From positions 1 through 64,000 of the forward strand of contig JACPPG010000002.1 in NCBI GenBank assembly GCA_016191115.1: a DNA stretch of 64,000 nucleotides, given 5' to 3'. This DNA is from Planctomycetia bacterium. Lineage in GTDB: Bacteria; Planctomycetota; Planctomycetia; Pirellulales; JACPPG01. The position numbers and the translations under genes were made by a program. The notes below the pieces were generated by a model that searched no databases, was not told where the DNA came from, and worked only from the letters and a program-made list of their open reading frames with translations. Of this stretch, positions 540 to 30,935 are shown one piece after another. The number at the start of each line of letters is the position of its first letter. Position 1 is the stretch's first letter.

Positions 540-806
540 GGCACCTGTTCCAACTCGTGCAATCCAAATACTTTAGGCTCGCGTTTTCAAGGATGTCACG
601 CCTCTTCGTTTGTGTAGAGGCGAAAACCGACGTCGATCGGACGCCGTTGAACGCTGACCTGGTCGAAACTACGGGGAACTGAGCTTTCCCGTTGAAATCA
701 CGGATAGCCATCTTCGGCAACTGCGTGGAAACCACTGCCATCATAGAGCTTCCGTGGAAAAACACTACCGACGACTCCACCACCAGGTGATCCTTGAGTT
801 GGGCCC
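540..806 (-). promoter_or_regulatory. Probable CRISPR leader
   Basis: This 267-nt stretch between the cas2 stop and the first leader-proximal repeat has no convincing gene. In this operon layout it is where the leader (array promoter and spacer-integration signals) should be. No promoter element is certain. Small ORFs here are in conflict with the array or with cas2 and are not accepted. Confidence 0.55.
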
Positions 807-1103
807 CTATACGATCTTGAAGCTCGGCGGACTGGCCGCCCAGGACGACTGATCGCCGGTCGAATGAAGCGGCACGCGCTCTGCGCAGCCGCCACAAATC
901 GGCATGACAAGCAAGTCGTCGTTTTCCTTCATGATTTCGGCCAGTTCCCAACAGAGTTTTTCTAGCGCGATACGGTCTAACCGGCATCGGAAGACGCTAT
1001 ATTGGAGCCGTTCGCCATATCCTTCCAGCTTCTTGGCCACCTTTCGCAAGCGTTTTGGATCGCGAATGTCGTAGGTAATCAAGTGCCACGATTTCTCAGC
1101 CAT
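807..1103 (-). CDS. cas2: CRISPR-associated endoribonuclease Cas2
   Basis: This 98-residue protein is a normal Cas2 length. It starts with the typical ferredoxin-like first strand LITYDIRDPKRLRKV, carrying the conserved Asp, then GYGERLQYSVFRCRL. Cas2 dimers bridge two Cas1 dimers in the spacer integration complex. A GAGGTAA ribosome-binding site lies about 6 nt before the ATG, and the gene begins 4 nt after the cas4/1 stop, so it is the last gene of the cas operon before the array. The C-terminal tail after residue 80 is less conserved. Confidence 0.95.
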   Translation of the reverse strand: MAEKSWHLITYDIRDPKRLRKVAKKLEGYGERLQYSVFRCRLDRIALEKLCWELAEIMKENDDLLVMPICGGCAERVPLHSTGDQSSWAASPPSFKIV

Positions 1104-1107
1104 GGTG

Positions 1108-2811: not shown

Positions 2812-2887
2812 GGAGCAATGTCCATCTGGCTCCTTATAGATTCTTCGATTGGTTCTTGGTTTGCAACACTTATTCCGAACAATCGCC

Positions 2888-3526
2888 TCATGAATCAGCG
2901 GAAATCAGCGGTATCGAATTCACGGATGGAGGCTGACTTGCTGGCCAATCCACCAAATCCCCGGTTGCATAACGGGTTCTGGTCGACCCAACGTGGTCGA
3001 CCCAAACCGGCAGCGTAAGGCGTCCCCGGTTGGCGAGAAGAAATGCACGGCCAGAGTGACCATCGAGCCGCGCGTTTACTGTTTCAACGGGGCTCACCTC
3101 ATCGACAAGGTGCGTGCTTTCCCCCAATGACAAACCGCCAAACCGCGAAACGGAACTTGGATCAGTCAAAGCCCTACGGACGCGGGCTTCCAGGCCAGTC
3201 TCGGCTTCCTCGCTAGAATCCAGCCAGATCACTAATTTGAGGTCGGTAAGCAGTTGTTGATAATCGGGTCGGGTATTGCCGGCCGACCCGAGCGGTGTCT
3301 TCTTGACCCGCCAAATGGTGCGAAGGACGACGCTTGTCTGGGGCTCGTTGACCAGCACCGGAGCAATGCGAACGCCCAAATGACGGCGACGATCGGTCTC
3401 ACCGACGAGCGAGAGCAAGAAGCCATAGCAAGTCGCTGGTGGCGGCAGCGGCTCGGTTTCGAGGTATTCCCGGGCCAGCCCTTTGCGGAAGCAAGCGACG
3501 GGAACGGAGACGTAGACGCCGAGCAT
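2888..3526 (-). CDS. cas5: Cas5, DevS/Cmx5 type
   Basis: This 212-residue Cas5 binds the crRNA 5' handle in the Cascade complex. The N-terminus MLGVYVSVPVACFRKGLA, followed by REYLETEPLPPPATCYGFLLSLVGE, is the DevS signature of the Myxococcus dev CRISPR subtype. A glycine-rich RFGGLSLGES segment is at about residues 127-137. It starts 3 nt after cas7 with AAGGGGTAAG as ribosome-binding site, so the two are probably co-translated. The 76-nt gap to cas4/1 is the widest in the operon. Confidence 0.92.
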   Translation of the reverse strand: MLGVYVSVPVACFRKGLAREYLETEPLPPPATCYGFLLSLVGETDRRRHLGVRIAPVLVNEPQTSVVLRTIWRVKKTPLGSAGNTRPDYQQLLTDLKLVIWLDSSEEAETGLEARVRRALTDPSSVSRFGGLSLGESTHLVDEVSPVETVNARLDGHSGRAFLLANRGRLTLPVWVDHVGSTRTRYATGDLVDWPASQPPSVNSIPLISADS

Positions 3527-3529
3527 GAC

Positions 3530-4459
3530 TTACCCCTTGATTTTCAGTTCGGCGCTAATCCGCTCGACTGCTTCGGCGCACGCGGCCTTCACGCCGTGGG
3601 CCGTCACGCCAACTTCGGCGAATTGCCTGGCGAGCGGAGACTCAAGATCGCTCACGCCTAGGATTAATTCCTCCATTGTGACATCCCCTGCCTGCAATCG
3701 CTTGAGCAGGGCGTCGGCGGTCACGGTCTTGCCGTCGTCGTTCGTCGAGAAACAATACAGCAATCGCGGAGCCGGGTCGGCGGTCAGTCGGAAGACGACG
3801 GCCTCGGGTGAGAAGTCGAACAGGAAACGCCCATGATTGCCGGCAACCGTACCAAGGTTGCACAACGCTTCGATGGCCTTCGCTACCCGCGACTTGTCGC
3901 GAAGCCGTTCCGGCGTGAGTGCGATGCCGTATTGGTACCGCGTGGCGTGAACCTCGGTGCCGTAAGGCACGGGGTTTTTGCTTTTGTTCTCGCCTTTTGA
4001 AGCGGAGGGAGTGGCACCGGGCGAAGCTGCGTTAAAGGTGACGTCGCCAGCCCATGGGGTAAGCGACACAGCGCGTGTGATTTCAAGAACAGCCCGTCGG
4101 ACATTTGCTGAGCCCTTCCCGTCGCCGCCGTCAACTTCACTCTTCGCGGCGTCCGCCCTCATAAATCCGAGCAGGTCGTCGTCAATGAAAGTCTTGCCCT
4201 TTTCGCTGGTCCATCCCTTGAATTCGTGATCTTCCCACGCGTTGACCCGTTCGGTTTCGTCCCAGGAGCGGTTGGTAGTTTCGGCCGCACGGAGCCGTCT
4301 ACGGAGTGCGAATCGAATCGCTTCTGCCGAAACGGTGCTGTGGGTCTCGCCCATCCAGAGCAGCTTTTGGAGAGTAGTAATATTGCCCTCCGTTTCAGCA
4401 CGATTATTTGCCGCCGTGCCATATGGCGTGACAAAATTGGCGAACGCATGAAGACTCAT
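3530..4459 (-). CDS. cas7: Cas7, DevR type, Cascade backbone
   Basis: This 309-residue RAMP protein forms the helical backbone that covers the crRNA. The N-terminus MSLHAFANFVTPYGTAANNR, then ETEGNITTLQKLLWMGETHSTVS, matches the DevR/Cst2 branch of Cas7. The central HATRYQYGIALTPERL and the LFDFSPEAVVFRLTADP stretch fit the family. AAGGAGTAG lies 7 nt before the ATG, and the gene starts 5 nt after the cas8 stop. In Myxococcus the DevR homologue is tied to development; nothing here suggests that role, so interference is the default reading. Confidence 0.93.
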   Translation of the reverse strand: MSLHAFANFVTPYGTAANNRAETEGNITTLQKLLWMGETHSTVSAEAIRFALRRRLRAAETTNRSWDETERVNAWEDHEFKGWTSEKGKTFIDDDLLGFMRADAAKSEVDGGDGKGSANVRRAVLEITRAVSLTPWAGDVTFNAASPGATPSASKGENKSKNPVPYGTEVHATRYQYGIALTPERLRDKSRVAKAIEALCNLGTVAGNHGRFLFDFSPEAVVFRLTADPAPRLLYCFSTNDDGKTVTADALLKRLQAGDVTMEELILGVSDLESPLARQFAEVGVTAHGVKAACAEAVERISAELKIKG

Positions 4460-4464
4460 CGGGC

Positions 4465-6219
4465 CTACTCCTTGGTTTGGCTAGGTTCGGATTCTGAAGA
4501 GCTGCCGCCCTCTTCGCCGCGCCCGCCGTAACTGGATAGGGCCAGCAGGGCGAGATCTCGCGTCAATTGCCACTTGTGTTCATTCAACATCGGCAGCAGG
4601 GCTTGCCAACCGTCCGTGAGGCTTGGAAGTCGGCCCGCTCGACTGAACAAATCACAGACCGCGAAACGGACTTGACCCTGCGTCTTGGCGCCGGACAGAT
4701 CGAGCCGCAGCCGTTCTCGAAACTTATCCCAGCGATTCTTGGTCGCTTGTGATAAAGGTCGGTCGCCGTCTGTTTCGTTACGAATCTGGCCGAGGCGGAA
4801 ATTAATCGCCTCATGCACAGCCCTCACGACGAGGGCTTCCCCTTTGTCCTCCCAGACGCGGTCGTCGGTCACCATATCGTTCAAGCCTTTTCCTTCAAAG
4901 AAGATTTGGTTCCGGTACGGTTTGTCCGTGGCCGGGTTAATGGCAGTCATCAGGCGAGCAAATCCGGAATACCAAGGGCGGCCGCGGGCCAAGTTCTCGG
5001 CGATGAAGGGGCGGACCACGCTGTCGGTTCTAAACGATTCGCGACGTTCCGAGGTGCCTTTGGTTTTTCCCTTACCTGTCGGCTCTTTGACGGTTTTGGT
5101 GACGATTCGCGGCGCGAGCTTCGAGAACGCCAAGTCATAGATATCGAATTCGCGGCCTCTCAAGATGGGCACGTAAAGCGATTCGACCCGCGATTTTTGT
5201 TGTGAAGCCCATGCGGTTGGGCGAAACGTGAGCGCATGACAACCTGTCAATTCCAGGTCTCGCGCTTTCAAGCGGACCTGTAGTTGAAGTCCGGCATCTG
5301 CACCACTTCCGACGCGGCTATCCAATAGTCCGCGAGGTGTCATAACCGGTCGGCTGCTGGCAAACTCCAACAAGTCAGCGACATCAGGGATGATCAGCAC
5401 AGCGGTAATGCCATTGACTGGAAGCGCGAGAGTCCCAATGAGGGCAAAATGTAGGCAGATAAGACCACCACTCGACTCGAAGATTGCCGATTGCTTGAAT
5501 CTGTCATGCCGCGTCATCGCCCCAGGCAGGATTTTGATGTCGATCGCGTGTTGGCCGCCGGCTAGATGGCCATCGTTGTCGACGAATGGGGGCGTCTGGT
5601 GGAGCTTTATCCGTCGTCCAGTCTTTACTCTCTTCCCGGTTGCTGCGTCCGTTTCCTTCGATCTTTCATCTCTGTCGAGCCAAAACCAACCTTGGTGCTT
5701 GTAAGAAGTGAAAACATCGTGGCTGAAGTGATATGATTTGTCATCAACTTCGATTGTTGTTTCACGCTCGGCTTCGCGGCTGCCGCAGGTTGGTCCGTGC
5801 TGCAAGTACGTGAGTTGAATTCCTTCCTGCAACGACGCCCGCGCTACCAGCGTCGGCGGTAGGTCGGTGTACTGACCGGGCAAGTAAATCAAGCCTTCCT
5901 TAATCTGGAAACCTATTGCAAACAGTTTCCTTAGATAGTCGCCCGCCAACTCGGGCTCGCCAAATCGCAGCGTGATCTGATCCGCTTCAATCTCCCAAGG
6001 CGCTGCGGCCTTGTCCCACGGCCCGCCGGGCACGTCGTCGTCTGACAACGCGCCCTGCTGATATGCTCGTTCAATAAACTTGAGCGTACACGCTAATCCA
6101 CCGAGGCCGGCTCGGTGCAGTGCTGTCATACCAGGGGCGAATAATGACATCGGCAGGTGGTCCGGGCCAATTGGCTCCTTCGACACCTTATTGGCTGTCG
6201 GCTTCTTCACTTTCGCCAC
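4465..6219 (-). CDS. cas8: Cas8 large subunit, DevT/Cmx8 (MYXAN) type
   Basis: This 584-residue protein sits where the large subunit is expected, between cas3 and cas7. Its N-terminus (PMSLFAPGMTALHRAGLGGLACTL) and the stretch LRFGEPELAGDYLRKLFAIGFQIKEGLIYLPG resemble the DevT/Cmx8 family, which recognises the PAM and recruits Cas3. The start is a GTG at 6219 that overlaps the end of cas3 by 13 nt, with no strong ribosome-binding site, so it is probably translationally coupled. The call rests on family resemblance plus position; large subunits diverge quickly, so the exact subfamily name is less sure than the role. Confidence 0.85.
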   Translation of the reverse strand: MAKVKKPTANKVSKEPIGPDHLPMSLFAPGMTALHRAGLGGLACTLKFIERAYQQGALSDDDVPGGPWDKAAAPWEIEADQITLRFGEPELAGDYLRKLFAIGFQIKEGLIYLPGQYTDLPPTLVARASLQEGIQLTYLQHGPTCGSREAERETTIEVDDKSYHFSHDVFTSYKHQGWFWLDRDERSKETDAATGKRVKTGRRIKLHQTPPFVDNDGHLAGGQHAIDIKILPGAMTRHDRFKQSAIFESSGGLICLHFALIGTLALPVNGITAVLIIPDVADLLEFASSRPVMTPRGLLDSRVGSGADAGLQLQVRLKARDLELTGCHALTFRPTAWASQQKSRVESLYVPILRGREFDIYDLAFSKLAPRIVTKTVKEPTGKGKTKGTSERRESFRTDSVVRPFIAENLARGRPWYSGFARLMTAINPATDKPYRNQIFFEGKGLNDMVTDDRVWEDKGEALVVRAVHEAINFRLGQIRNETDGDRPLSQATKNRWDKFRERLRLDLSGAKTQGQVRFAVCDLFSRAGRLPSLTDGWQALLPMLNEHKWQLTRDLALLALSSYGGRGEEGGSSSESEPSQTKE

Positions 6220-8480
6220 GATGCACCACGCAGTGGGTCATAGTCGATCACGTCCGGTCGTGCGATCGGAATATCCCTGGCCGTTTGCCACTCGCGCCAG
6301 TTCATGGCTCTCGGCGGCGAGGGCATTGGTAGGACAACTTCTGCGAGCTTTTTGCTTCCCGTGCGAACACCTAGCATATCCTCTTGCAGAACCACGGTTA
6401 TGCCGGGAGAAGCTTCGCGCAGTTCAAGGACCGTCGTCATCGGTCCGCCATCGAGCCAGGCGCTGGCCACGAAGTCCGGCTTCCGTCCGGCATCGTACTG
6501 TTCCCAGGCTTCGGCCAAGTCCCTTTGCGACAGTGGACCGTCGGGCAAAGCTGCGAGCCATTCCCGAGCCGACTGTAACTCCGCCAGCGAATAGGGCAGA
6601 TTGTCGTCGCCGACATCGATGATGATAAACGGGCAGGTTGGGCAGCCTGCCTTGGCCTTTCGATTCAATCGGCCGAGCCTTTGGATAAGGGCTGGCACGG
6701 GTGCCAGTTCAGTGACTAGCAGAGTCACGCCTTCCAGGTCCAGGCTCATTTCGCAGACTTGCGTCGTGCAGGCAACGACCGGCTCGGATTGCTTCGCCTT
6801 GAAAGCTTTGACGACAGCCTCGTGCCGTTGCACGCGATCACAATAGCGGAACCGAGAGTGATAAATGGCCGGATGTAAATCAGCGATTGAATCGGCCGCA
6901 CCCATTGCGCGGTTGACCGTGTTGCTCACCCAAAGCGCCTTGCGGCCGGCAGCAATCTCGATCCAAACACGTTTCGGCACATCGGCGGGAGTGTCTTCCC
7001 GGTGGTAACGGGCCAGCGTTTCCAATTCCTCCGGCCCACCGATTTCGGCCATCGGCTGGCGGTGGGCCTGCTTCAAACAGTTTTGCAATGCCACGAGACG
7101 CGCGTTTGGCAAGCTAGCAGTCATCAACAATACGGGAACTCCAGGAAGGTTTTGCAGGAAGCGGAGCAACGCGCCGAACAGTTTGTCGTCGTAGGCATGA
7201 ATCTCGTCGAACACGAATGCCGAGCCAGCCAAGGCCGGCCATGCGTATATCCCGCGACGGATATTCTGTACGAGCCCAAGCACCGTATCGACCGTACAAC
7301 TGACGACCGGAGTGGACCATGCGTCGAGCGATTCAATTCGCGCGACGACATCAGCTTCGGCCGCTTTCTCGTCGTCCCGAACGATCAAAGCCATATCGAT
7401 GTCAGCCCGACCGTGGAACAGGCGGTAGTTCAAATTGGCGTCCGGATTGTGCAGATAGTCGCGGAATCCCTCCGTGGCAGTGCCTGTCGTAGGATAACAA
7501 AAGTAGAGCCGCTTCGAGGGATACTTGATCGCAGCCCATTGGTACGCGGCGAGTGTCTTGCCAGATCCGCATCCCGCCTTAACGAACGTGACGGATGACC
7601 CCGCCTTGGCAACGTCAGTCTGGAATTTTCGTAGCGAACCCCCGTCGAGCCGTTTGCTCACAATCGCAGCGAGCTCTCCAGGTTGGGGCGTGTTTGCGAA
7701 TGCATCTTGAATCCACGAAGCCCGTTTCGTTTCGTCCGCCACCCGCCGCGGCAAGGCCGATCCGGCGACATCCGCAGCGATGAGGGCGACTTTGACGGCG
7801 GCGACCAGCCGTTTGTCCCGATCCGTGAACCGCTTCCACAATTGACGGGATTCCACGAACCATTTTTGAAGCCGGCCAAAGATCATATCCGGGCCGACCA
7901 GAGGGAGTACCCACGGCCCGCAAAATCTTGGGATGCCCTCGACTTCAAACCGATCCTGCAGGACCTGCAAACATTCTCCGAACTCTGGATGGTCAACCAG
8001 CACGGTCAGGCGATCGCCCTCGCCCCGAGGCTCCTCCCGACGTGGCGGGGACTCACGTCCGTACGCCGGGTGGTGGCCGCCAATCGCCCACCCGACGATA
8101 GCCAAGTCGATTTCCTTTCCGCCTACCGCCGTCAGGAGCCAATCCCTCAGTTTCTCGCACAGCAATAGAACCGACACCCACTCGTGGCGAAGTCCTTGGG
8201 GGTTTTGTTGCACGTTCCGCTTTCCGCAGATCATCCCCTGAAAGTGATCGTTGGCTTTCCCGAGGTCATGCATCGCCGCCGCAAGCAGAACACATCGCCG
8301 AAATCGTTCGCGGTACGATCCAGCATCCAATCCAAGCGCACAAAGCTGATCGTCGGCCGTCACGTCAAGCACCTTCGACGCTGCGTCGTAAACGTCCGCC
8401 AAGTGATGGCGCAGGAGCATCGAGGCATGCTCGGCTTCTCCGTGCATCCTACTCTTGGCCCACAAATGGCTTGCATCCAT
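6207..8480 (-). CDS. cas3: Cas3 HD nuclease-helicase
   Basis: This 757-residue effector unwinds and degrades target DNA. The N-terminal HD domain shows AAAMHDLGKANDHFQ, GLRHEWVS and GGHHPAYG. The helicase core shows Walker A KAGCGSGKTLAAYQWA, the Walker B box FVFDEIHAYDD (DEIH), motif III TASLPNARL and motif VI VPALIQRLGRLNR. I chose the ATG at 8480 (MDASHLWAK), 2 nt after the cas6 stop, over the upstream in-frame extension, because the extension overlaps cas6 and looks non-coding. Both halves look intact, so the system should be able to interfere. Confidence 0.95.
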   Translation of the reverse strand: MDASHLWAKSRMHGEAEHASMLLRHHLADVYDAASKVLDVTADDQLCALGLDAGSYRERFRRCVLLAAAMHDLGKANDHFQGMICGKRNVQQNPQGLRHEWVSVLLLCEKLRDWLLTAVGGKEIDLAIVGWAIGGHHPAYGRESPPRREEPRGEGDRLTVLVDHPEFGECLQVLQDRFEVEGIPRFCGPWVLPLVGPDMIFGRLQKWFVESRQLWKRFTDRDKRLVAAVKVALIAADVAGSALPRRVADETKRASWIQDAFANTPQPGELAAIVSKRLDGGSLRKFQTDVAKAGSSVTFVKAGCGSGKTLAAYQWAAIKYPSKRLYFCYPTTGTATEGFRDYLHNPDANLNYRLFHGRADIDMALIVRDDEKAAEADVVARIESLDAWSTPVVSCTVDTVLGLVQNIRRGIYAWPALAGSAFVFDEIHAYDDKLFGALLRFLQNLPGVPVLLMTASLPNARLVALQNCLKQAHRQPMAEIGGPEELETLARYHREDTPADVPKRVWIEIAAGRKALWVSNTVNRAMGAADSIADLHPAIYHSRFRYCDRVQRHEAVVKAFKAKQSEPVVACTTQVCEMSLDLEGVTLLVTELAPVPALIQRLGRLNRKAKAGCPTCPFIIIDVGDDNLPYSLAELQSAREWLAALPDGPLSQRDLAEAWEQYDAGRKPDFVASAWLDGGPMTTVLELREASPGITVVLQEDMLGVRTGSKKLAEVVLPMPSPPRAMNWREWQTARDIPIARPDVIDYDPLRGASWRK

Positions 8481-8482
8481 GT

Positions 8483-9097
8483 TCACGTTCTTTCTTCGCC
8501 GGCCGCAACGAACACGCCGCATCCCATGTGCCGCTTGCCGCCGAGCCCGGTCTCCTGAAGAACGAGCGACTCGGTGGTGGTAAGGCCACTGACGCGAAGC
8601 TCGTAACCGACGATTTCCCGCTGCTTTAGGCGGAATGAGCGGCGCTTGCCAACCGTCAGAATTGCCTCAGCGCCAAGGCGTAGTTCGTCCATCTGCCTAC
8701 GGGCGGCCACTGTGAATGTCGCGGCCGTCAAGTCTTCCGCGCCAACATGCGCCACCTTGATGACGACCAGCCGGCTCTGAATCGCTGTCGATGGAACAAG
8801 TGCACGGACCTCGGGAACTCCGACGCGCACCGTGGCATAATCCAGTCGTAATGACTTGCCGGCCAGTTTCAACAAAGGCGCGATCTGGTTGTCCGGGACG
8901 CGCATCGCGAGCGCACTCCATGGCATCAGCATCAGCTTCCGATCTCCGATCTGCCGTCCGCGAATCGGATGGATAGCAACGCCGTTCTCTCGATGCAGCT
9001 CTGGTATCAGATGCGACACGGCTGCGTACAACGCGTACCCGTGGTCGGCGGGAATTGGTTCCGTTCCCTGCAAACGGAAAGTAAGGTCGACATGCAT
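8483..9097 (-). CDS. cas6: Cas6, Cmx6 (MYXAN) type crRNA-processing endoribonuclease
   Basis: Cas6 cuts the CRISPR transcript within each repeat. This 204-residue form has the Cmx6 features: HVDLTFRLQGTEPIPADHGYALYAAVS near the start, HPIRGR, LMLMPWSALAMRVP, LKLAGKSLRL and the glycine-rich end LVLQETGLGGKRHMGCGVF. The ATG at 9097 is chosen because GGGAGAAAG lies about 6 nt upstream; an in-frame extension to 9175 exists but matches the family less well. It is the first gene of the cas operon. A promoter should lie in 9098-9335 but I see no clear one. Confidence 0.93.
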   Translation of the reverse strand: MHVDLTFRLQGTEPIPADHGYALYAAVSHLIPELHRENGVAIHPIRGRQIGDRKLMLMPWSALAMRVPDNQIAPLLKLAGKSLRLDYATVRVGVPEVRALVPSTAIQSRLVVIKVAHVGAEDLTAATFTVAARRQMDELRLGAEAILTVGKRRSFRLKQREIVGYELRVSGLTTTESLVLQETGLGGKRHMGCGVFVAAGEERT

Positions 9098-9738
9098 GCG
9101 GCTTTCTCCCATGGTCAAAGACGTGCCAATCGCTTCGGCTAGCCGCGCCAGGCACAAGTGCACCAGCAGCGCCATGTCGCATGAATTGGTGGCAACACCC
9201 TACTATGCGGGTGCTCTTCCCATGTCTGAAAAACTCCGCCGAACGTTGCTCCTGTTCACCCGCCACTCGATTCCCGCAGCGCGTGAGGACATGCTAGGGT
9301 TGGGGGCGTCCTACTCAAGCTGGTAGGAGGATCTAATGTGCCGATGGGTGACCGGTTTTGCGCCGGCTGACAGCCAAGTCCCTCAGAATCTGATGCTTAG
9401 ACGGCTGGTGCTGCGGGCCATTTTGGCGAATGGTGGTTGCCAAAGCAAGCAACCGGTCTTGATACACCGACCCAAAACTGAGGGATTCAAAAGCGACGCT
9501 GAATATCACGCTGCGGCAACGCGGAGTGCGATCTCGTCTTCGACAGCGAGGTCCGGCAACGTCTAAATTTCGGCCGAAAACGCGCCAGAATCGAGTGAGC
9601 GGCCGCCGTTAGCTTGGCACGGGCCCGATTCTCGGCTTTCTCTCGCCAATTTCGGTTCGATTGACAAGTCACGTGGCCAAAGCTCTTCCGGCGGATCGGA
9701 CGCAAGCCCCACCGCGCGCACATCGAAAGGAGGTTCCC
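9098..9738. other. Intergenic region between the cas operon and the next operon
   Basis: This divergent 641-nt region should hold the promoters of both operons. A 76-codon ORF at 9336-9566 (plus) has a good GGAGG 6 nt before its ATG, but its codon use is mixed, it resembles nothing I know, and it has no clear domain, so it is left as a doubtful small gene. AAAGGAGG at 9726-9733 serves the next gene. Confidence 0.5.
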
Positions 9739-9939
9739 ATCATCACTCTGGTCCTCTTGAGTTGTTCCGTCCTGGTCCTGGTGCTCGTCCTGCTGCTTGT
9801 CCGCGAGGTCCGGCTCAGACGGGCGCTCGAAGCCCTGTTGCGTCGTCTGTTGAATCATTGGAGGTCCGCCCATGCCGCCAACAAAGATCCCCATCAAGAC
9901 ACTGACGTTACTCGCGGTCATCCTGGCAAGCGGCTGTAG
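9739..9939 (+). CDS. Small single-span membrane protein with apparent ATC start
   Basis: From 9739 the frame encodes about 66 residues: a hydrophobic span (ITLVLLSCSVLVLVLVLLLV) followed by a strongly basic tail (REVRLRRALEALLRRLL). A very good ribosome-binding site, AAAGGAGG, ends 5 nt before an ATC codon, and no ATG, GTG or TTG is at a suitable distance. The frame also extends upstream to a TTG at 9661 that lacks such a site. The 3' end overlaps the next gene by 68 nt. It could be a genuine small anchor protein, a gene that lost its ATG, or a leader. Function is unknown. Confidence 0.4.
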   Translation: MITLVLLSCSVLVLVLVLLLVREVRLRRALEALLRRLLNHWRSAHAANKDPHQDTDVTRGHPGKRL

Positions 9940-10444
9940 CTCGGACGAGCGTCTCGTCCACCATGTCGAGACGGCTAGCGAGCGACAAGCCGAACAGAAC
10001 CGCCAGATCGCCCATCAAAACCACGAGCTGGCCGAAGCCACAAACAACCTGATCGAGGCCGACGCCATTGCCCGCAAAGAAACCCTCTCTCTGCAGCGGG
10101 GGCTGCAAGTCGAGCAGTTCCGGATCGGCCAGCAGCGCGACGAGCTGGAGGCCGAACGCCGACAGGTTTCTGAGCAGCGGCACCGCGAATCAATCCTCGC
10201 CGCCGTCTTGAGCGATCTCGGGCTTACGCTCGCCTGCCTGTTGCCGCTTGTGCTTTGCGCGTATCTGCTGCATGGGCTGCGGCACGAACCGAGCGACCGG
10301 GAACTGAGCGACTTGCTGGTCGCGGAGTTAGCCTCCGACACGCCAATGCTTCTTCCACCGTACAGTCCGCCAAATTCACCGACACTAGCTCTGACGGCCG
10401 ACGAGCATAATGCGGCCCCAGACCAAGGAGGACAGGAGCCATGA
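9872..10444 (+). CDS. Coiled-coil lipoprotein, function unknown
   Basis: This 190-residue protein begins with a lipoprotein signal peptide ending in the lipobox LASGC (Cys22). It is followed by a long Glu/Gln/Arg-rich helical region, likely a coiled coil, at about 30-105, then a hydrophobic span (LGLTLACLLPLVLCAYLL) at about 112-130 and a polar tail. TTGGAGG lies 7 nt before the ATG. With a lipid anchor and a second membrane span it may form a hairpin-like membrane-bound rod. It is the second gene of an operon whose later members look like DNA-processing proteins. I recognise no named family. Confidence 0.8.
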   Translation: MPPTKIPIKTLTLLAVILASGCSSDERLVHHVETASERQAEQNRQIAHQNHELAEATNNLIEADAIARKETLSLQRGLQVEQFRIGQQRDELEAERRQVSEQRHRESILAAVLSDLGLTLACLLPLVLCAYLLHGLRHEPSDRELSDLLVAELASDTPMLLPPYSPPNSPTLALTADEHNAAPDQGGQEP

Positions 10445-10890
10445 GAATCGGGTTGGGCACTTATTCGTCGGAAGACTACAACGCCGATTGCGACTACGCG
10501 TTGGTCGACCTCACGCCGGCATTGGCAAAGCGGATCCTGGCCCGCATGGACCTGGCGGCCAGGCTACACCGCGACGACATCTCGCTCCACGAGCTGTACT
10601 TTTGGAACGCAGAGGCCGAGTTCTTCTCCACGCCGGACGACGCACTGACCGAGCAACTGCCGGACGCGAGCGATGGGCACGTGATCCTGCCCGAGGGACT
10701 CGAGATCCCCGCCGATTGCTTTCAGCGGACCGAGTACGACCACATGATCGTCAATACGGTCGGCGAGGAGTGCGAGGTCTTCTGGCGGTCGAGTCCCAAA
10801 AACGTGTTCATCGAGATCACGACGGCCAGCCTGCCGCGGGAGTTGATCGAGCAGATCGCGCGTGGTTTGCAGCCGTCCTCGCGACCTTGA
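10441..10890 (+). CDS. Hypothetical protein
   Basis: This 149-residue soluble, acidic protein starts with MRIGLGTYSSEDYNADCDYALVDLTP. It overlaps the upstream stop by an ATGA junction and has AAGGAGG a few bases further upstream, so translation is coupled to the lipoprotein gene. No motif is recognised. Conserved-looking blocks are the N-terminal DYALVDLTPALAKRIL and the C-terminal NVFIEITTASLPRELIEQI. Similar small proteins occur beside DUF1257 genes in planctomycetes as I recall them, but I can assign no activity. Confidence 0.75.
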   Translation: MRIGLGTYSSEDYNADCDYALVDLTPALAKRILARMDLAARLHRDDISLHELYFWNAEAEFFSTPDDALTEQLPDASDGHVILPEGLEIPADCFQRTEYDHMIVNTVGEECEVFWRSSPKNVFIEITTASLPRELIEQIARGLQPSSRP

Positions 10891-10901
10891 TCCATTGCGC
10901 G

Positions 10902-10915
10902 AAGACGCGCGTCTT
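10902..10915. promoter_or_regulatory. 14-bp perfect palindrome in an intra-operon gap
   Basis: AAGACGCGCGTCTT reads the same on both strands and lies 12 nt after the stop of the upstream gene, within the only sizeable gap (about 147 nt) of this operon. A palindrome without a loop is more typical of a dimeric regulator site than of a terminator. No -10/-35 pair is evident nearby. Confidence 0.3.
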
Positions 10916-11037
10916 TCTGGTCGCGTTCGCAAGCGACGGCGGGCAGCTCTTTCAGTCGCGCTACGCATGCGCGGTCTTGGGGTGGGTGTCGCCGATCGCC
11001 CTGCAACAGCACCTTCGTCACGAAAGGAGTCCACGTA

Positions 11038-11409
11038 TTGAGCCACATTGCCGAAATCAAAACCGAAGTGCGTGACACGGCGGCCGTCGAGGCCGCTTGT
11101 CGCCGTCTCGGCCTCGCGCAGCCCACGCAGCAAACCGTCCGTCTTTTCAGCGGCGAAGTCACGGGACTGGCCATCGCGTTACCGGGCTGGCGATACGCCG
11201 TCATTTGCGACGTCGCAAGCGGCGCGATCCGCTACGACAATTTCAGCGGCCACTGGGGCGACCAAAGGCAGCTCGATCGGTTCCTGCAGGCGTACGCCGT
11301 CGAAAAGGCACGCATCGAGGCCCGCAAAAAAGGCCACAACGTCACCGAGCATCTTCTGGCTGACGGCTCGATCCGCCTCTCGATTCAGGTTGCCGGAGGT
11401 GCCGCATGA
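11038..11409 (+). CDS. DUF1257 (Ycf35-like) protein
   Basis: This 123-residue protein starts at a TTG with AAAGGAG about 9 nt upstream. MSHIAEIKTEVRDTAAVEAACRRLGL, the central YAVICDVASGAIRYDNFSGHWGD and the tail ARKKGHNVTEHLLADGSIRLSIQ are the hallmark of DUF1257, homologous to the algal plastid protein Ycf35. Its function is unknown. Together with the DUF2997 gene that overlaps its stop, it forms a pair found widely in cyanobacteria and planctomycetes, often near AAA ATPases; no ATPase is next to it here. Confidence 0.85.
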   Translation: MSHIAEIKTEVRDTAAVEAACRRLGLAQPTQQTVRLFSGEVTGLAIALPGWRYAVICDVASGAIRYDNFSGHWGDQRQLDRFLQAYAVEKARIEARKKGHNVTEHLLADGSIRLSIQVAGGAA

Positions 11410-11600
11410 CGCGAATCATCGAGATCACCATCTCACCCACCGGCCAGACGACCGTCCAGACCAAGGGTTTTGTCGGTCCCTCCTGCCGCCAGGCCAGCCG
11501 CTTCATCGAAGAGGCCCTTGGGCAGCGGGCCGGCGAAACGCTCACGGCGGAGTTCCATCAAGCGGCCGACGTTCAGCAGGCCCAACAGCAGCGGAACTGA
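11406..11600 (+). CDS. DUF2997 small protein
   Basis: This 64-residue protein begins at an ATGA junction with the DUF1257 gene. MTRIIEITISPTGQTTVQTKGF followed by the GPSCRQASRFIEEALG helix is the DUF2997 pattern. Its function is unknown, and the constant pairing with DUF1257 suggests that the two act together. The C-terminal tail is rich in Gln. Confidence 0.8.
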   Translation: MTRIIEITISPTGQTTVQTKGFVGPSCRQASRFIEEALGQRAGETLTAEFHQAADVQQAQQQRN

Positions 11601-11654
11601 CCGCCTGGCCGCAGTTTCGGTTCTTTCCTTCGTCTCCGTCCTGGAGAATCCCAT

Positions 11655-12956
11655 ATGAAGACACGCGCAGGCGTGTGGGCGCGCCTGCGTGCGTTCCTAC
11701 TCCGCCGCAATGATCCTCTAGTCCCCGACACAACCATCGGCCCTGATCGCAGCAGGCCGGTGCTGGTCAACGTTGAAGGCGCCAACGACATCGAGTTTCT
11801 ACGACGGACAAGCGCCATCTTGCACCGGGCCGACAACTCGATCGTCGACCTGGCCGAGCTGGAGCAACGGCGCCGTCTCGTGTTTCTTTCCTTTGGAGGC
11901 GGCGATCTGCGGTCGTGGGCCTTCCGCCTGGCCGCGCTCGGTCATCCCGAGTTCCATCTCTACGACCGTGAGACGCCGCCAACTAGCGAACTCCGACGCC
12001 AGGTGGTCGAAGTGCTCAACTTCCGCGGTAACTGCCGTGCTTTTCTGACCGGCAAGCGCGCCGTGGAAAACTATCTACACCCAGACGCCGTCCGCGTGAG
12101 CCTCTCCTGGCTGGGTGTCCGCAAGACGCTCACCCCCGAACAAAAAGCCCAGGCCGCCGAGTCGTTTGGCGCCGAGGGGGAGTTCCTGTCGGCCGGCAAG
12201 AAGCTGCTCGACACCCGCCATCCGGCGTTCAAGGCGGTGACCAGCGTCCGCACGCGACTGCTTTCGTTCTGGAAGGGGATTACGCTGCCATATCCCGAGT
12301 CTGGCATCCGATTGATCCGCCAGGCCGACATCGCCAGCTTCGATGTGCAGATGACCACGCTCAAGGCCGAGCTCGATGAAGCGGTCGAACGATTGGACGC
12401 GCATTACGCGGAACTCAAGTCGGCAGCACGAGCGAGGCTGGGCACGCTCTACAACCCGGCCGACTATCCGCAGTCGCTGCGGCGGTTGTTCAGTGTCGAG
12501 TGGGACTATCCGTCGGTCGAGCCGCCCAACTATTTGCAGCAGCTCAGCCCCGAGTTGTTTGCGCAGGAGCAGGCCCGTGTAGCAGCACGCTTCGACGAAG
12601 CCGTGCGGCTGGCCGAAGAAGCGTTCACGAGCGAGCTCTCAAAACTCGTCTCGCACCTGGCCGAACGGCTGAGCGGCACGGAAGACGGCAAACCCAAGAT
12701 CTTTCGCGATTCGGCGGTCGGCAACCTGGCCGAGTTCTTCGATCGCTTTCGCACGCTCAACGTGCGATCGAGCCAGGACCTTGACGACTTGGTCGACCGC
12801 GTGCAGCGATTGGTCCGTGGCGTCGAACCGCAGGAACTACGCTCTTCCGAATCGCTACGGGAACACATGGCCACGCAACTGGCTGGCGTTCAGTCGGTGC
12901 TCGACGGCCTCCTGGTGGACCGGCCCCGACGGAACATCCTGAGGAGCCCGAAATGA
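11655..12956 (+). CDS. TOPRIM-domain protein fused to a conserved helical domain
   Basis: This is a 433-residue protein. Residues 35-145 look like an OLD/DUF4435-type TOPRIM fold: VNVEGANDIEFL (Glu41, Asp45), a GGGDL turn at 81-85, YDRET with Asp104 and Glu106, and KRAVENYL with Glu138. TOPRIM domains use such acidic residues for metal-dependent DNA cleavage or strand passage. Residues from about 190 onward form a helical region ending VDRPRR that resembles, from memory, stand-alone planctomycete proteins encoded beside clamp-like genes. I infer a fusion. The ATG at 11655 has no strong ribosome-binding site. The gene ends in an ATGA overlap with the next. Activity is untested; the TOPRIM call is moderately sure. 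Confidence 0.7.
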   Translation: MKTRAGVWARLRAFLLRRNDPLVPDTTIGPDRSRPVLVNVEGANDIEFLRRTSAILHRADNSIVDLAELEQRRRLVFLSFGGGDLRSWAFRLAALGHPEFHLYDRETPPTSELRRQVVEVLNFRGNCRAFLTGKRAVENYLHPDAVRVSLSWLGVRKTLTPEQKAQAAESFGAEGEFLSAGKKLLDTRHPAFKAVTSVRTRLLSFWKGITLPYPESGIRLIRQADIASFDVQMTTLKAELDEAVERLDAHYAELKSAARARLGTLYNPADYPQSLRRLFSVEWDYPSVEPPNYLQQLSPELFAQEQARVAARFDEAVRLAEEAFTSELSKLVSHLAERLSGTEDGKPKIFRDSAVGNLAEFFDRFRTLNVRSSQDLDDLVDRVQRLVRGVEPQELRSSESLREHMATQLAGVQSVLDGLLVDRPRRNILRSPK

Positions 12957-13261
12957 ATGCGCGGGCGCGCCATAGTAATAAGGACAAAAATCCAATGGAG
13001 ATTCTGGTCCTTCCGGGGGGATTGGTCCGCTGCCTCTATGACGAGGCGATTGACCTGGCGGAGCTAGGGCGGTTGACGATTGTGCGGGCCAGCCATGTCG
13101 AGCCGGATGCAGACGGCAACTGGTATGCAGACCTCGCGCCCGTCGGCGGTCCGAAGCTTGGACCCTACGCGCGACGAAGCGACGCGTTGGCTGCTGAGCA
13201 GAAGTGGCTCGAAGCGAACCACATTTGTCGCGTTCATTGCGAAGGTGCTGCTCCTGTTTGA
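12953..13261 (+). CDS. Small conserved hypothetical protein
   Basis: This 102-residue protein starts at an ATG overlapping the upstream stop, with GAGGAG about 7 nt before it. A shorter form from Met15 (12995) is possible and would match better the small planctomycete proteins I recall, which start near ILVLPGGLVRCLYDEAIDL. The core VRASHVEPDADGNWYADLAPVGGP followed by the LGPYARRSDALAAEQKWL helix is well formed. Function is unknown; it belongs to the DUF1257/clamp-like cluster. Confidence 0.75.
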   Translation: MNARARHSNKDKNPMEILVLPGGLVRCLYDEAIDLAELGRLTIVRASHVEPDADGNWYADLAPVGGPKLGPYARRSDALAAEQKWLEANHICRVHCEGAAPV

Positions 13262-13286
13262 GGAGCCATTCACCGCGCAATAAAAG

Positions 13287-13320
13287 AGCCCGTCACGGTG
13301 GGGCAGGAACCGGACGGGCT
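13287..13320 (+). terminator. 8-bp inverted repeat, possible attenuator or terminator
   Basis: AGCCCGTC and GACGGGCT are perfectly complementary around an 18-nt loop, 26 nt after the stop of the preceding gene. No run of T follows, so an intrinsic terminator is doubtful; an RNA structure in the roughly 300-nt gap before the next gene is as likely. The rest of the gap (13321-13565) holds no gene I can support. Confidence 0.35.
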
Positions 13321-13565
13321 GATGTACTACCAGGGGCAGCACAGCGGAAGAATACCAAACCGCAGCCGCCACTACAAACAAATTCTTCCGCGGTTTTTTC
13401 GCCGCTAGCGCCGGCAGACGCATCACAGCGAGGCTAGCGACAGTGAGGGGGGGATCGGCGCGTTTCGGTCTCGCCAATTGCCTCCACCTTTTCCACCGCC
13501 CTTTGGTCACCCCACCCGGGGCATTTGTCGGCATTACTCTTTGTCACCAAATGGAAAGGATTGCC

Positions 13566-13775
13566 ATGACCCAGGCCCAACTAGAGCGTGAGGTCGCCCG
13601 CGCGACCGGTGAATCTGTCAGCACCATCCGCCACCGCGGCTTCAGCATCGTCGACATGCCCGCGATCAAACTGCTCGACGATCCGGCTTCGGCGCAGACC
13701 GTCGATTGGGAGGCGATCGACGAAGCGCGCATCGCCCTGTTCCCGGACCGGACCAGGCGGCGGATGGCCGCGTGA
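13566..13775 (+). CDS. Small conserved hypothetical protein
   Basis: This 69-residue protein begins MTQAQLEREVARATGESVSTIRHRGFSIVD and ends in a basic tail. The first 30 residues read like a short helix-turn-helix-like segment, but I would not call it DNA-binding on this alone. GGAAAGGA lies about 6 nt before the ATG. Similar 60-80 residue proteins are familiar from planctomycete genomes beside clamp-like genes. A longer in-frame extension to 13443 lacks a start signal and is not used. Confidence 0.7.
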   Translation: MTQAQLEREVARATGESVSTIRHRGFSIVDMPAIKLLDDPASAQTVDWEAIDEARIALFPDRTRRRMAA

Positions 13776-13824
13776 CCAACCGGTCGGCTCAGTATTTCAC
13801 CTCTTCACACCAGGAGGTCATTCC

Positions 13825-15264
13825 TTGATATCGATCCCTCGAACGTTCATCCGGCAACTGCGCGCTGTCCTGCGGCGTGCCGGCATCAAGTCCAGCGCAC
13901 TCGGCGGATACGGCCACCGACTGCTCTTTCAAGCCACCCCGGACAAACTGACCATTCGTGCCTTGTCGCTGGACGTGGCCATCGAGTGCTTTGTCATCGG
14001 TAGCTTCGACGAAGAGCAACTCATCGTTCCCCTCGAATTCCTGGAGGATTGGCAAGGCCGCGTGGATGATCCAGTGATTTTGGAGCGACGCGGCAAGGAC
14101 CGGTTCAGCGCCAGTTGGTCCGACGGCCGCATCCCACAACGGGCCGAGTATGCGACCGAGCCTTTGCCCAAAGGATGGAAGTTTCCAGAAGTTCCTAGCG
14201 ACCTGCACGCCAATCCATCGTCGCTGTGGGCCGCCCTGCGCGACGCAGCCAAGATCACAGACGCGGGCTCGTCGCGGTATTCCCTCGGTTGCATCCAGCT
14301 CCGCGGTGACCGGGGCCAGCTTGTGGCCACCGATGGCCGCCAGGTGCTGATGCAAGAGGGTTTTGACTTCTCTTGGGAAGGGGAGCTGCTTGTGCCGCCG
14401 TTGGGTGTGCTTGGGTGCCGGGAACTGGCCCATGATTCCGGCGTCGCCGTTGGCCACACCGACGACTGGGCCGTCTTTGGCATCGGCAACTGGACCATCT
14501 GGTCACGGATCAACAAAGAGGGGCGGTTCCCGCGCGTGGACGACATCGTGCAACCGATGGATCGGGCGATCGCCACAGCCAGCTTGGTGCCAAGAGACGC
14601 CGAGTTTTTGGCCGCGTCGATTCACCGCCTTCCCGGCGACAAGGATTTTGGTCAGGCGGTCACACTCGACCTCGACAGCCGGGTGGTCTTACGGGCCAAG
14701 TCGGAAGACTGTCCGATCACTACGGAACTGGTGCTGTCGCAATCGGCAACCACCGGCGAGCCCGTCCGCGTCAACATGAACCGCAGCTTTCTGGCCCGCG
14801 CAATCGAGCTGGGTTTCAACGAGCTGCACGTCTTTGGGCCGACGACGCCCATTCAGTGCCGCGACGACCACAGGACGTACCTGTGGGCGGTGCTCGATCA
14901 CGAAAGCGCCTTGCCCGCCGTACCGAATGCAATACGGATCGACTCGGCGACGGCCGCTCCACCATCCCTCACCAAACAACGAAAGAACCGAGTTCCCATG
15001 CCTCGCACTCAACCAACGGCGCCGGCTGGCGCCGATGATACGCTGGCGAGCCGGCCGACCGAGGTTGCCGCCACGCAATCAGACCGCGAAGAAACGTCGG
15101 TGACCGTGAGTCCCATCCAGCAGGCAGTTGTCTTGCGGCAGTCGCTCGCCGCGGCCCTGGGACAGGCCAACAAGTTGATCCGTCAGCTCAAGCGACAGAA
15201 GCGGCAGTCCAAACTCGTCGAATCGACACTCGCCTCGCTCCGCGAGTTGCACGACGCAGCCTAA
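13825..15264 (+). CDS. Divergent DNA polymerase III beta-clamp-like protein
   Basis: This 479-residue protein starts at a TTG with AGGAGGT 7 nt upstream. Three roughly equal alpha/beta segments fill residues 1-370. The second contains LRGDRGQLVATDGRQVLMQEG followed by FSWEGELLVPPLGVLG, and then RFPRVDDIV, reminiscent of the clamp motifs ATDGHRL and FPDY. The tail from about 390 is a Pro/Ala linker and a basic coiled coil (QANKLIRQLKRQKRQSKLVE). From the pattern I infer a sliding-clamp fold used by an element-specific DNA machinery; the resemblance is at fold level and needs a profile search. The chromosomal dnaN is not in this window. Confidence 0.6.
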   Translation: MISIPRTFIRQLRAVLRRAGIKSSALGGYGHRLLFQATPDKLTIRALSLDVAIECFVIGSFDEEQLIVPLEFLEDWQGRVDDPVILERRGKDRFSASWSDGRIPQRAEYATEPLPKGWKFPEVPSDLHANPSSLWAALRDAAKITDAGSSRYSLGCIQLRGDRGQLVATDGRQVLMQEGFDFSWEGELLVPPLGVLGCRELAHDSGVAVGHTDDWAVFGIGNWTIWSRINKEGRFPRVDDIVQPMDRAIATASLVPRDAEFLAASIHRLPGDKDFGQAVTLDLDSRVVLRAKSEDCPITTELVLSQSATTGEPVRVNMNRSFLARAIELGFNELHVFGPTTPIQCRDDHRTYLWAVLDHESALPAVPNAIRIDSATAAPPSLTKQRKNRVPMPRTQPTAPAGADDTLASRPTEVAATQSDREETSVTVSPIQQAVVLRQSLAAALGQANKLIRQLKRQKRQSKLVESTLASLRELHDAA

Positions 15265-15318
15265 CTTGCGGTGCGGCGCCGCACTGGCCAGTTCACCATT
15301 CACTCCGAGGAACCCTCC

Positions 15319-15831
15319 ATGCCCCTCAAACTCAACGTGGGCCTCTCCAAAAAAGTCGGCCTGCCCGACTATGGGTCGCTGGGTGCAAGCTGCAACGTCG
15401 AGTATGAGCTCGGCGGCACGATCCCAGGGACAAACATGGACCGCTTCTACGAACAGGTCCGCGAGACCTTTGCGGCGTGCTCGAAAGCGGTGCATGACGA
15501 ACTGGCCCGACAACAAAACGCCAACGGTAGCAACACAGCCCGTCAGCCCGCTGCGCGCAGAAACGCTGCCGCTGAATCGTCGGCGAGCCCTGACAGCCGC
15601 AACGGCAATGGCCCTCGGGCCACCACCAAGCAGCTCGACTACGCCGGGCAATTGGCCGGCCAGATTCGCGGGCTGGGCGTGCGGCGACTGGAAACGCTCG
15701 TCACCCGAATGTTCGACAAGCCGCTCGCGGACCTGACGAGCCTGGAAGCCTCGAACCTGATCGACACTCTCAAGGACATCAAGGCCGGAAGGATCGACGG
15801 CGATGCGGCCTTGAGTGGAGCCGCCGCATGA
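15319..15831 (+). CDS. Conserved hypothetical protein, possible DNA-binding
   Basis: This is a 170-residue protein. Residues 1-65 (PLKLNVGLSKKVGLPDYGSLGASCNVEYEL) form a compact beta-rich domain, a low-complexity linker runs about 70-105, and a C-terminal helical domain TTKQLDYAGQLAGQIRGLGVRRLETL ends the protein. The layout of a folded domain plus flexible linker plus small helical domain recalls single-strand-binding accessory proteins, but no motif proves it. The ATG at 15319 follows GAGGAA; the upstream extension to 15271 is less likely. Its stop overlaps the nuclease start (ATGA), so the two are coupled. Confidence 0.7.
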   Translation: MPLKLNVGLSKKVGLPDYGSLGASCNVEYELGGTIPGTNMDRFYEQVRETFAACSKAVHDELARQQNANGSNTARQPAARRNAAAESSASPDSRNGNGPRATTKQLDYAGQLAGQIRGLGVRRLETLVTRMFDKPLADLTSLEASNLIDTLKDIKAGRIDGDAALSGAAA

Positions 15832-16664
15832 CCGTCGAACTCCTCGACTTCAAAACTCGTGACGAGCCGGCTGGTGTCTGGGACTACGTCAGCCCCAGCC
15901 GGCTCAATCTGTGGCTCAAGTGTCCGCTGGCTTTCAAGCTGCGGTACATCGACGGGGTAGTGACGCCCACATCGCCGGCCATGTTCGTCGGTCGCATGGT
16001 CCACCAGGCCCTGGAATGTTTTTACCGCCACCGGCAGATCGGGCTGGCAATCAACGCCGCCGAACTTAAGAAGCGACTGACCGAAGCGTGGGGGCCAGCG
16101 GCCGCCGCCGACAAGGTGGCCTTCAAATCACAGGCTGACGAGCAGACGTGCTCCAAACAAGCGAGCGACCTGGTGACTGCCTACCTGGCGCACTTGGCGA
16201 ACAATTCCGAGCCGCATCCGCTGGCCGTCGAGACGTCTGTCTCCGCGCCACTGGTCGATCCAATGACCGGCGAAGATCTGGGAATCCCGCTCGTGGGCGT
16301 GGTCGACCTCGTGCTGGCCAAAGAACCGGGGCCGCTGATCGTGGACTTCAAGACCACCTCGCGATCCACAGCGCCGCTGGCCGTGACCCATGAAGTGCAG
16401 CTTGGCGTGTACGCCTATCTCGTCAGGCACGCCTTGGGCCGGTGTGAGTCAGGTCTTGAAATCCGCCAACTGGTGAAGACCAAGACCGTCCAGGTCGCTT
16501 ACGCCTGGCACTCCCCGCGCAGCCCGCAACACACGCGGAGGCTCTTTGAGGTGATCCGCGCCTATCTGGATGACCTGGATCGCGGCCGGTTTGTGTTCCG
16601 GCCGGGGCTCGCCTGCCAGTCGTGCGAATACCGTGACGAGCACTGCCGTCGGTGGTGTGCCTGA
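15828..16664 (+). CDS. RecB/Cas4-like PD-(D/E)XK nuclease
   Basis: This is a 278-residue protein. It shows SPSRLNLWLKCPLAFKLRY, GRMVHQALE, the Asp of GVVDLVL, the catalytic IVDFKTT (D-x-K), a QLGVYAYLV helix, and a C-terminal cysteine set CQSCEYRDEHCRRWC that with an upstream Cys would bind an Fe-S cluster as in Cas4 and AddB. Such proteins act as single-strand exonucleases. It is the strongest functional anchor of this operon and argues for a DNA-processing role. It is distinct from the Cas4 domain of the nearby cas operon and is not part of that operon. Confidence 0.88.
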   Translation: MTVELLDFKTRDEPAGVWDYVSPSRLNLWLKCPLAFKLRYIDGVVTPTSPAMFVGRMVHQALECFYRHRQIGLAINAAELKKRLTEAWGPAAAADKVAFKSQADEQTCSKQASDLVTAYLAHLANNSEPHPLAVETSVSAPLVDPMTGEDLGIPLVGVVDLVLAKEPGPLIVDFKTTSRSTAPLAVTHEVQLGVYAYLVRHALGRCESGLEIRQLVKTKTVQVAYAWHSPRSPQHTRRLFEVIRAYLDDLDRGRFVFRPGLACQSCEYRDEHCRRWCA

Positions 16665-16725
16665 GCGACCGGCCGCCTGCCTGCTCGGAAGTCTCTCCCA
16701 CTGCCCACAACTCCAAGGAGACAAT

Positions 16726-17266
16726 ATGCCTGGATTGACCGTAACCGAGAAAGAACACTGGAAAGATCGCATTGCCCGCCGGATTGACAAGCGGATCGAG
16801 GCAATCTGTGCCGAAGAGCTGGGCTTCCTGGAACGCCTCCATGACGAGGCCCGGCGGCTCGCCGTCGCTCGGCCTTTCGGAGCTAGTGGCCGAGTCAAAA
16901 CAGGTCGAGAGCCAGAAGCAGCAGCTCACAAAACGCGAAGTGGAGCTCGAACGAGAGATGGCGGCCGTGATCCGCGGCGCTTTGCCGGACGCCGGCAGCC
17001 CATACTACCGACCGCACTGCGACGCCGAGCGGGCGATCAACCAGCGGCAGACCGTGCACGAGGAGGAGTTATTGGGCCAGACGGACCGCGGTCGGCGGAT
17101 CCTCAAGTTGCGCGAGGAGAGAGAGGGTTTACTTGACACTGTCTGGTTGGCGACGTCGCCAACGCAGATTCGCGCGCTTTGGTCGAAAGTGGGCGAACTG
17201 TTATGCGACGAACCGACGCAACTCCAGCGCGATGCCCTGGCGATTGAGCCGGTAACGGCCATGTAA
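16726..17266 (+). pseudogene. Frameshifted conserved coiled-coil protein
   Basis: AAGGAG precedes the ATG at 16726 and the frame reads MPGLTVTEKEHWKDRIARRI through DEARRLAVA. Near 16860-16875 the coding sense moves by one base to SLGLSELVAESKQVES, continuing to QRDALAIEPVTAM. Read together the two parts give one roughly 180-residue protein: a basic helix, a coiled coil, and a C-terminal domain with DTVWLATSPTQIRALWSKVGELL. Intact proteins of this plan are, as I recall, common in planctomycetes next to clamp-like genes. Either the gene is broken, frameshifting occurs, or the assembly has an error. Confidence 0.7.
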
Positions 17267-20445: not shown

Positions 20446-20461
20446 GGTAGCCGTGGATCGC

Positions 20462-23802: not shown

Positions 23803-23806
23803 GGCG

Positions 23807-30585: not shown

Positions 30586-30874
30586 GATGGACCTCTGAGC
30601 TGGAACGAGAAGACTTGGGCGGTGACACGTCGTCTCCGCCACGATCAAACACCAGGCCGTTTCGCCTGGTCGTACCAGCTCGCAGGTCATCATGAGCCGC
30701 TTCTAGCGTCTAAACTGCCGTCTTCGAGCGACGAGCGTCGTGCAGTCCGCAGCGAAGATTTCGTTCAACAGGAAATTGAAATGGGCCCTTACTCATTGAG
30801 GGTGGGGTAGGCTGTGAGTGCACTTTGGCTCGGCTCGAGCGGTTGTCGCGATTGGTGTTCGGGACCTCAGCCGG

Positions 30875-30917
30875 TTGACAACATAGTATGCAATGCAATT
30901 ATTACTTGGTATGCAAT
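30875..30917 (+). promoter_or_regulatory. Putative promoter with two 9-bp direct repeats
   Basis: TTGACA at 30875-30880 is a perfect -35 box. Downstream, GTATGCAAT occurs at 30886-30894 and again at 30909-30917, 23 bp apart (about two helical turns), straddling the region where the -10 box would be. The next gene starts at 30936. The spacing suggests an operator, perhaps for autoregulation by that gene. Confidence 0.45.
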
Positions 30918-30935
30918 CGGGGAAAAGGGGAACTT

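Follow-up and report, generated by a model that had tools for sequence, protein, structure and literature searches.

The window (the whole 64-kb stretch of contig JACPPG010000002.1 of a Planctomycetia bacterium analysed here) carries a run of open reading frames (ORFs), all on the forward strand, from 9739 to 17266, whose genes, labelled A to K, form the cassette under study. At its centre lie genes that recur in relatives as a conserved core: C (11038..11409), encoding a DUF1257-like, Ycf35-related protein; D (11406..11600), encoding a DUF2997 protein; E (11655..12956), by comparison with relatives an in-frame chimera of a TOPRIM-like part (residues 1-144) and a DUF3150-like part (residues 145-433); and F (12953..13261) and G (13566..13775, 69 residues), encoding small conserved proteins whose profiles match 87 and 76 of 91 loci, respectively. 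These are followed by H (13825..15264), which starts with TTG and encodes a sliding-clamp paralogue; I (15319..15831), which is present in 25/91 loci and consists of a conserved N-terminal block, a variable linker and a C-terminal block; and J (15828..16664), encoding a PDDEXK nuclease of Cas4/AddB-type layout. The assignment of D is firm (Pfam E value 3.3e-16; 59.3 bits against PF11211, over the cut-off), and that of C combines a weak Pfam match with its homologues: against PF06868 the window protein scores 18.4 bits and that of the relative L019 scores 19.8 bits, both under the cut-off of 22.2, and homologues in eight relatives are 56-65% identical. The name DUF3150-like is taken from the plasmid annotation under a tblastn match of E; neither the window E nor the L019 E matches DUF3150 in Pfam at an E value of 0.5 or below. 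In profile searches the cassette proteins beyond C, D, H and J had no family at a useful score.

Relatives were gathered by scanning a genome collection with an alignment of E, which gave 140; the best 80 by similarity to the clamp-type alignment were kept, with gene calls made mechanically, and they include several loci from one genome as well as near relatives (L016/L017, L018/L020 and L085/L086). These best 80 belong to planctomycetes except for one Emcibacter and two other bacteria. Around clamp matches the gene order C-D-[AAA]-E-F-G-H repeats, an AAA gene being present in 61 of the 66 loci that have at least 3 kb upstream (among 89 loci with E), and C and D together in 39/45 loci with E and more than 8 kb upstream. 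The impression of the first-pass annotation that these genes recur together in planctomycetes is therefore borne out, E being found, with conserved order, in 27/392 Planctomycetota genomes searched, with as many as 5 matches in genomes for which 5 candidates were scored; scoring per genome was limited to at most 5 (4) candidates, such that copies per genome are minimum values and some genomes were possibly missed. The clamp search gave matches in 12/294 genomes of the phylum, part of them ordinary dnaN.

A host function, in which the cassette and its own clamp assist planctomycetes in DNA repair or replication, would fit the company of clamp, nuclease, TOPRIM-like and ligase genes (an ATP-dependent DNA ligase is present in 9/91 loci), their conserved order and the chromosomal position of the cassettes in complete genomes. 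The distribution of the cassette argues against such a function: beyond its patchiness across the phylum, E is present in 5/9 listed genomes of one genus (g7), copies per genome vary from one to seven (seven in Planctomycetales bacterium 10988, including recent mosaic copies), and ubiquitin-like genes occur in 19 of the 52 loci whose sequence extends 5 kb or more beyond the core. We regard a host accessory as improbable. The ligase, which has a cysteine-rich N-terminus, lies in or just 3' of the cassette (L036 8340-9487, L087 4126-5199 and seven others).

The window copy is a rearranged chromosomal copy, in which the AAA gene is absent, E is chimeric and K is frameshifted. The TOPRIM-like part is seen in 20 other loci, in 11 of which it is placed between D and AAA; among the loci compared it is fused to E in the window only, where its 144 residues run in frame into E residues with no AAA gene between them. 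Its model has the order E36-40, H43-59, H66-71, E75-79, H85-95, E99-105, H110-123 and E127-134 (E, strand; H, helix), and a profile search of PDB sequences together with fold searches gave no TOPRIM match. The closest AAA protein in the window's genome is a paralogue on contig C52 that is 33% identical and has no C or D match alongside. These breaks would suit a functionless, decaying remnant, but the frames of C, D, F, G, H, I and J are open, H and J keep their conserved residues, and the breaks could be errors of assembly, the genome being a draft in 93 contigs; a remnant is accordingly improbable.

The case for a clamp rests on both sequence and structure. H matches phage processivity factors (profile search, E value 9e-7), and structure comparison places residues 1-361 in the three-domain clamp fold, with structural matches to DnaN at 11-19% identity; beyond this part the model has a low-confidence linker and a C-terminal helix (430-478). 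The motifs TDGRQ and GRFP of H align with TDGRR and GRFP of the DnaN of its own genome, and across 27 aligned rows D170 and P236 are invariant and T169 and R234 nearly so; we take these TDGR/RFP residues to be the lining of the DnaN peptide pocket. Against the DnaN family TIGR00663 (cut-off 137.65 bits) the H of relative L021 scores 17.9 bits, and the window H has no NCBIfam match at an E value of 1 or below. The housekeeping dnaN lies elsewhere in the genome (G000:C13:24355-25455).

J matches PDDEXK_1 (PF12705) with an E value of 2e-32. Nine of its residues are invariant in 17/17 aligned relatives: D160, D173, K175, Q191 and Y195, and four cysteines, one N-terminal (C32) and three C-terminal (C263, C266 and C273). 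This layout is presumably that of a Cas4/AddB-type 4Fe-4S nuclease, with the four cysteines as the Fe-S ligand pattern. Against Cas4 (TIGR00372) J scores 35.4 bits, under the cut-off of 65.

In the first-pass annotation these genes formed an operon with clamp-like, TOPRIM and RecB-like nuclease proteins, which was read as an independent DNA replication, repair or defence machine whose clamp is not the housekeeping one. Part of this stands: the gene run recurs, the protein at 13825 has a clamp fold within a conserved neighbourhood, and its gene is distinct from the dnaN of the genome. Independence is unsupported as worded, because the core AAA+ gene is absent from the window copy, which also holds a chimera and a frameshift. 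What emerges beyond that annotation is that the core is shared with plasmids and a phage, that its modules can be exchanged, a ubiquitin-like one being among them, and that clamp copies often stand beside unrelated defence systems.

The exchange of modules takes place 3' of G, where relatives carry one of two alternatives: H, which I and J may accompany, or a gene set for a ubiquitin-like protein (Ubl), an E2-like protein, a JAB protein and an E1. The 52 loci that reach 5 kb or further past the core comprise 14 with H and I/J, 9 with H alone, 16 with the Ubl set alone, 2 with Ubl and I/J, 1 with H and Ubl, 1 with I/J alone and 9 with none of these, and H and Ubl shun each other (Fisher p 6e-6, loci treated as independent). 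On a tree of E (a quick tree with SH-aLRT support only) the H and Ubl labels change 14 times, six of the changes being forced by starred branches, against a shuffle mean of 17.4; shuffles as low as observed numbered 34/500 for H and 27/500 for Ubl. Because of these changes we conclude that the two modules have been swapped repeatedly on one core. The E1 is a ThiF protein (E value 8e-24 in L049), and the JAB protein of L070 matches Prok-JAB at 1e-4, under the family cut-off. In the E2-like protein HPHV and a following cysteine, which we take to be the UBC motif, are invariant in 10/10 sequences, along with many further cysteines, and a long cysteine-rich tail follows. The Ubl was called by eye, a fused copy in L030 giving a sub-threshold ThiS match (E value 0.025); in L039 (2750-2974) and its relatives the Ubl has the conserved end IEGA, not a double glycine. 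A profile search of the window gave no E1-family match.

The core is also found on mobile elements. E is matched in 37 plasmid records, and the Candidatus Manganitrophus plasmids CP114559 and CP114554 carry JAB, AAA, DUF1257, DUF2997, DUF3150-like and F genes consecutively, in the vicinity of helicase, recombinase and ParB genes; the profile of C matches the plasmid DUF1257 gene and that of F matches the Manganitrophus plasmids at 1e-28. The Tunturiibacter tailed phage Tunturi_3 (L130) matches AAA and E and, weakly, DUF2997 and F (F at 3e-6); its annotations include a ligase and a Cas4-type exonuclease. AAA genes with DUF1257/DUF2997 relatives also occur on Thermovibrio and Pseudanabaena plasmids, and at an E value of 1e-20 AAA relatives are found in 709 plasmid records and 85 from phages; in 46 and 35 of these, respectively, the match spans 80% or more of the query. 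On the Pseudanabaena plasmid pPg_01 (L132) GrpE, Hsp70, DUF1257, DUF2997 and AAA genes form one cluster. On two Burkholderiales plasmids a vWA gene follows the E-like gene, and genes for PRTRC and type IV secretion lie next to them. Using purpose-built profiles, which give lower bounds, recombinases were found within 6 kb upstream of 6/13 Ubl loci and 2/19 clamp loci, TniA-TniB-TniQ standing immediately upstream in L097 and L099 and TniB-TniQ upstream in L101. We favour a mobile-element origin of the core because it is shared with plasmids and a phage, because of its copy number and because of these recombinases.

Several observations pull the other way. Recombinases are few at clamp-type loci (the 2/19 above), and the recombinase profiles, which are incomplete and miss ORF 31962-33137, matched none in the window. 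No element ends were found: the tRNA-Arg gene of the window (33236-33310) has no att-like repeat in the 83.9 kb of contig searched. The clamp was not found in the phage and plasmid records searched by tblastn or in the viral contigs searched, from which E was missing too, and the cassette proteins scanned for a clamp-binding motif showed none that is conserved. The ORF at 31962-33137 is tyrosine-recombinase-like by eye and lies directly beside the tRNA-Arg gene. With the ORF at 29227-30693, presumably DUF3987-like, the region 29227-33310 could be the right-hand boundary of a genomic island.

Upstream of the cassette and divergent to it, on the reverse strand at 76..9175, lies a type I-B system of clustered regularly interspaced short palindromic repeats (CRISPR-Cas) comprising a Cas4-Cas1 fusion, Cas5b, Cas7b, Cas8, Cas3b and Cas6b, its array of seven exact 36-nt repeats (76-539) standing at the contig edge. 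For an upstream comparison we took the loci with at least 4 kb upstream, namely 19/35 clamp-only and 13/23 Ubl-only loci, with L046 (Cas3g/Cas8g) and L020 falling outside. Within 6 kb upstream, at an E value of 1e-30, the 53 proteins of the clamp loci matched 120 PADLOC families and the 35 proteins of the Ubl loci matched none. Tallied per locus, defence systems stand upstream of at least 9/19 clamp loci, a lower bound, versus 0/13 Ubl loci (Fisher p 0.004, loci treated as independent): CRISPR I-B in the window, DrmD/HmaA-type (DISARM/Hma-like) helicases in L016, L017 and L022, type I restriction-modification in L023, L045 and L071, and PglW in L024 and L062. In 8/9 of these loci the cassette and the defence gene lie in divergent orientation. 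Planctomycetes are rich in kinases like those of L064, and for this reason its matches (PD-T4-6 and mad6, E value <1e-60) were not tallied as defence; the LmuA-like match of L094 (1e-12) was also left out of the tally.

This association raises the possibility of anti-invader defence, in which the AAA+/DUF core would sense infection and the plugged-in module would be the effector, either a clamp-tethered nuclease that attacks foreign DNA during its replication or a pathway that tags foreign proteins in ubiquitin-like fashion, acting beside and perhaps with the classical defence system. The effector-style swap of two unrelated modules on one core would suit it, as would the neighbours of the clamp loci and a related small helix-turn-helix protein, encoded between defence genes and cassette in 4/14 loci tested and beside three kinds of system (that of L016 is mad1-like). 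Against this, the contrast of at least 9/19 with 0/13 sets clamp loci against Ubl loci only; when phylogeny is respected, the defence link comes down to 4 starred (8 total) independent pairs, too few for significance, 2 to 3 of the 4 starred pairs agreeing with the link and none opposing it. Moreover, plasmids and a phage carry core genes as well, islands of defence genes gather mobile genes too, and ORF 11655-12956, the sole window cassette protein scanned, matched 0 PADLOC families at an E value of 1e-4 or below. We see dedicated defence as a serious possibility, well short of even odds.

Our preferred reading, to which we give a probability of roughly 45%, is that the core module of a mobile element is present in the window as a rearranged chromosomal copy, whose clamp tethers a nuclease for DNA processing or conflict. 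In intact relatives the companions of a Ycf46-like AAA+ ring are DUF1257-, DUF2997- and DUF3150-like proteins and two small ones, this core being joined to one of the two exchangeable modules, in the window the DnaN-type clamp H with I and the Cas4/AddB-like J. The clamp would encircle DNA and tether J, and in relatives also the DNA ligase or TOPRIM-like protein; the tethered enzymes may then process ends or junctions, whether in the element's own or in competing DNA, while the AAA+ ring could load or remodel the complex. Having no AAA+ gene of its own, the window copy has probably lost the ability to go through the complete cycle. The swap of a DNA-acting module for a protein-acting one and the defence neighbours of the clamp form speak for a role in conflict. 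A bolder proposal, which we hold to be rather unlikely, is a mobile conflict machine whose AAA+/DUF1257/DUF2997/DUF3150-like core repeatedly swaps a private clamp and 4Fe-4S nuclease for a ubiquitin-like E1-E2-JAB pathway, the DNA version being housed with the classical defence system of its island; if true, a setting of conflict would extend to relatives of ycf35 and ycf46, two plastid genes that still lack an explanation.

The remaining genes flank this core and module. A small transmembrane ORF (9739..9939, +; cluster c31) lies immediately 5' of A, as alike ORFs do in L025, L063, L066 and L093. By eye, A (9872..10444, +) encodes a lipoprotein with a lipobox, a coiled coil and a transmembrane segment; its profile matches 22/91 loci, and it has no Pfam family at a useful score. 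B (10441..10890, +) is a small protein whose profile matches 2/91 loci (the window and L087). K (16726..17266, +), spread over two reading frames, belongs to family c45 (profile match, E value 1e-28; relatives at L030 3984-4502 and L087 10432-11217). Further downstream, 17899-24165 encodes an FHA-ABC transporter (PADLOC mad3 and mad8 matches), an unknown gene and a protein kinase (mad6 match). Elsewhere, a helix-turn-helix protein (cluster c72), sigma-factor-like by eye, lies in or next to the cassettes of L021, L027, L032, L038 and L071, and among the clamp-less cassettes L097, L099, L101, L104 and L106 the last three are followed by a gene that is gyrB-like by eye and by dnaN.

Compared with known systems, H shares fold and pocket motifs with the DnaN beta sliding clamp (TIGR00663), but it scores far under the family cut-off, carries an extra linker and C-terminal helix and is not the housekeeping gene. 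Likewise, J shares PDDEXK motifs and four cysteines with the Cas4/AddB/RecB 4Fe-4S nucleases, but it is under the Cas4 cut-off and its partner is a clamp, not cas1 or addA. The PRTRC cassette with its DUF3150-like, vWA and ATPase neighbours on Burkholderiales plasmids likewise brings an E-like gene, an ATPase and a ThiF E1 into one region; the window cassette, however, has no E1 or other PRTRC gene, the E1 of a Ubl-type relative scores 32.7 bits against a cut-off of 144.75, and neither of the two PRTRC regions read showed DUF1257, DUF2997 or the clamp. With the Manganitrophus plasmids and phage Tunturi_3 the common core is AAA, DUF2997, F and the DUF3150-like E, with DUF1257 on the plasmids and H, I and J unmatched in the stretches examined. 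The bacterial ubiquitin-like operons, as far as the consulted portions of their descriptions go (Iyer 2006, PMC1779556; Kaur 2020, PMC7159879), have E1, E2-like, JAB and Ubl in common with the Ubl-type relatives, whose E2-like protein differs in its long cysteine-rich tail; term searches of the accessible text found neither planctomycetes nor AAA in the former and none of Ycf46, DUF1257 and sliding clamp in the latter. In the literature searched on DUF1257/DUF2997, DUF3150 and combined topics, no title, abstract or passage seen describes the cassette. A core that takes clamp and nuclease or ubiquitin-like conjugation as alternatives thus appears undescribed in the literature searched, and it connects, in a way that can be tested, the biology of mobile elements with bacterial ubiquitin-like systems and with the Ycf35 and Ycf46 families, which still lack an explanation.

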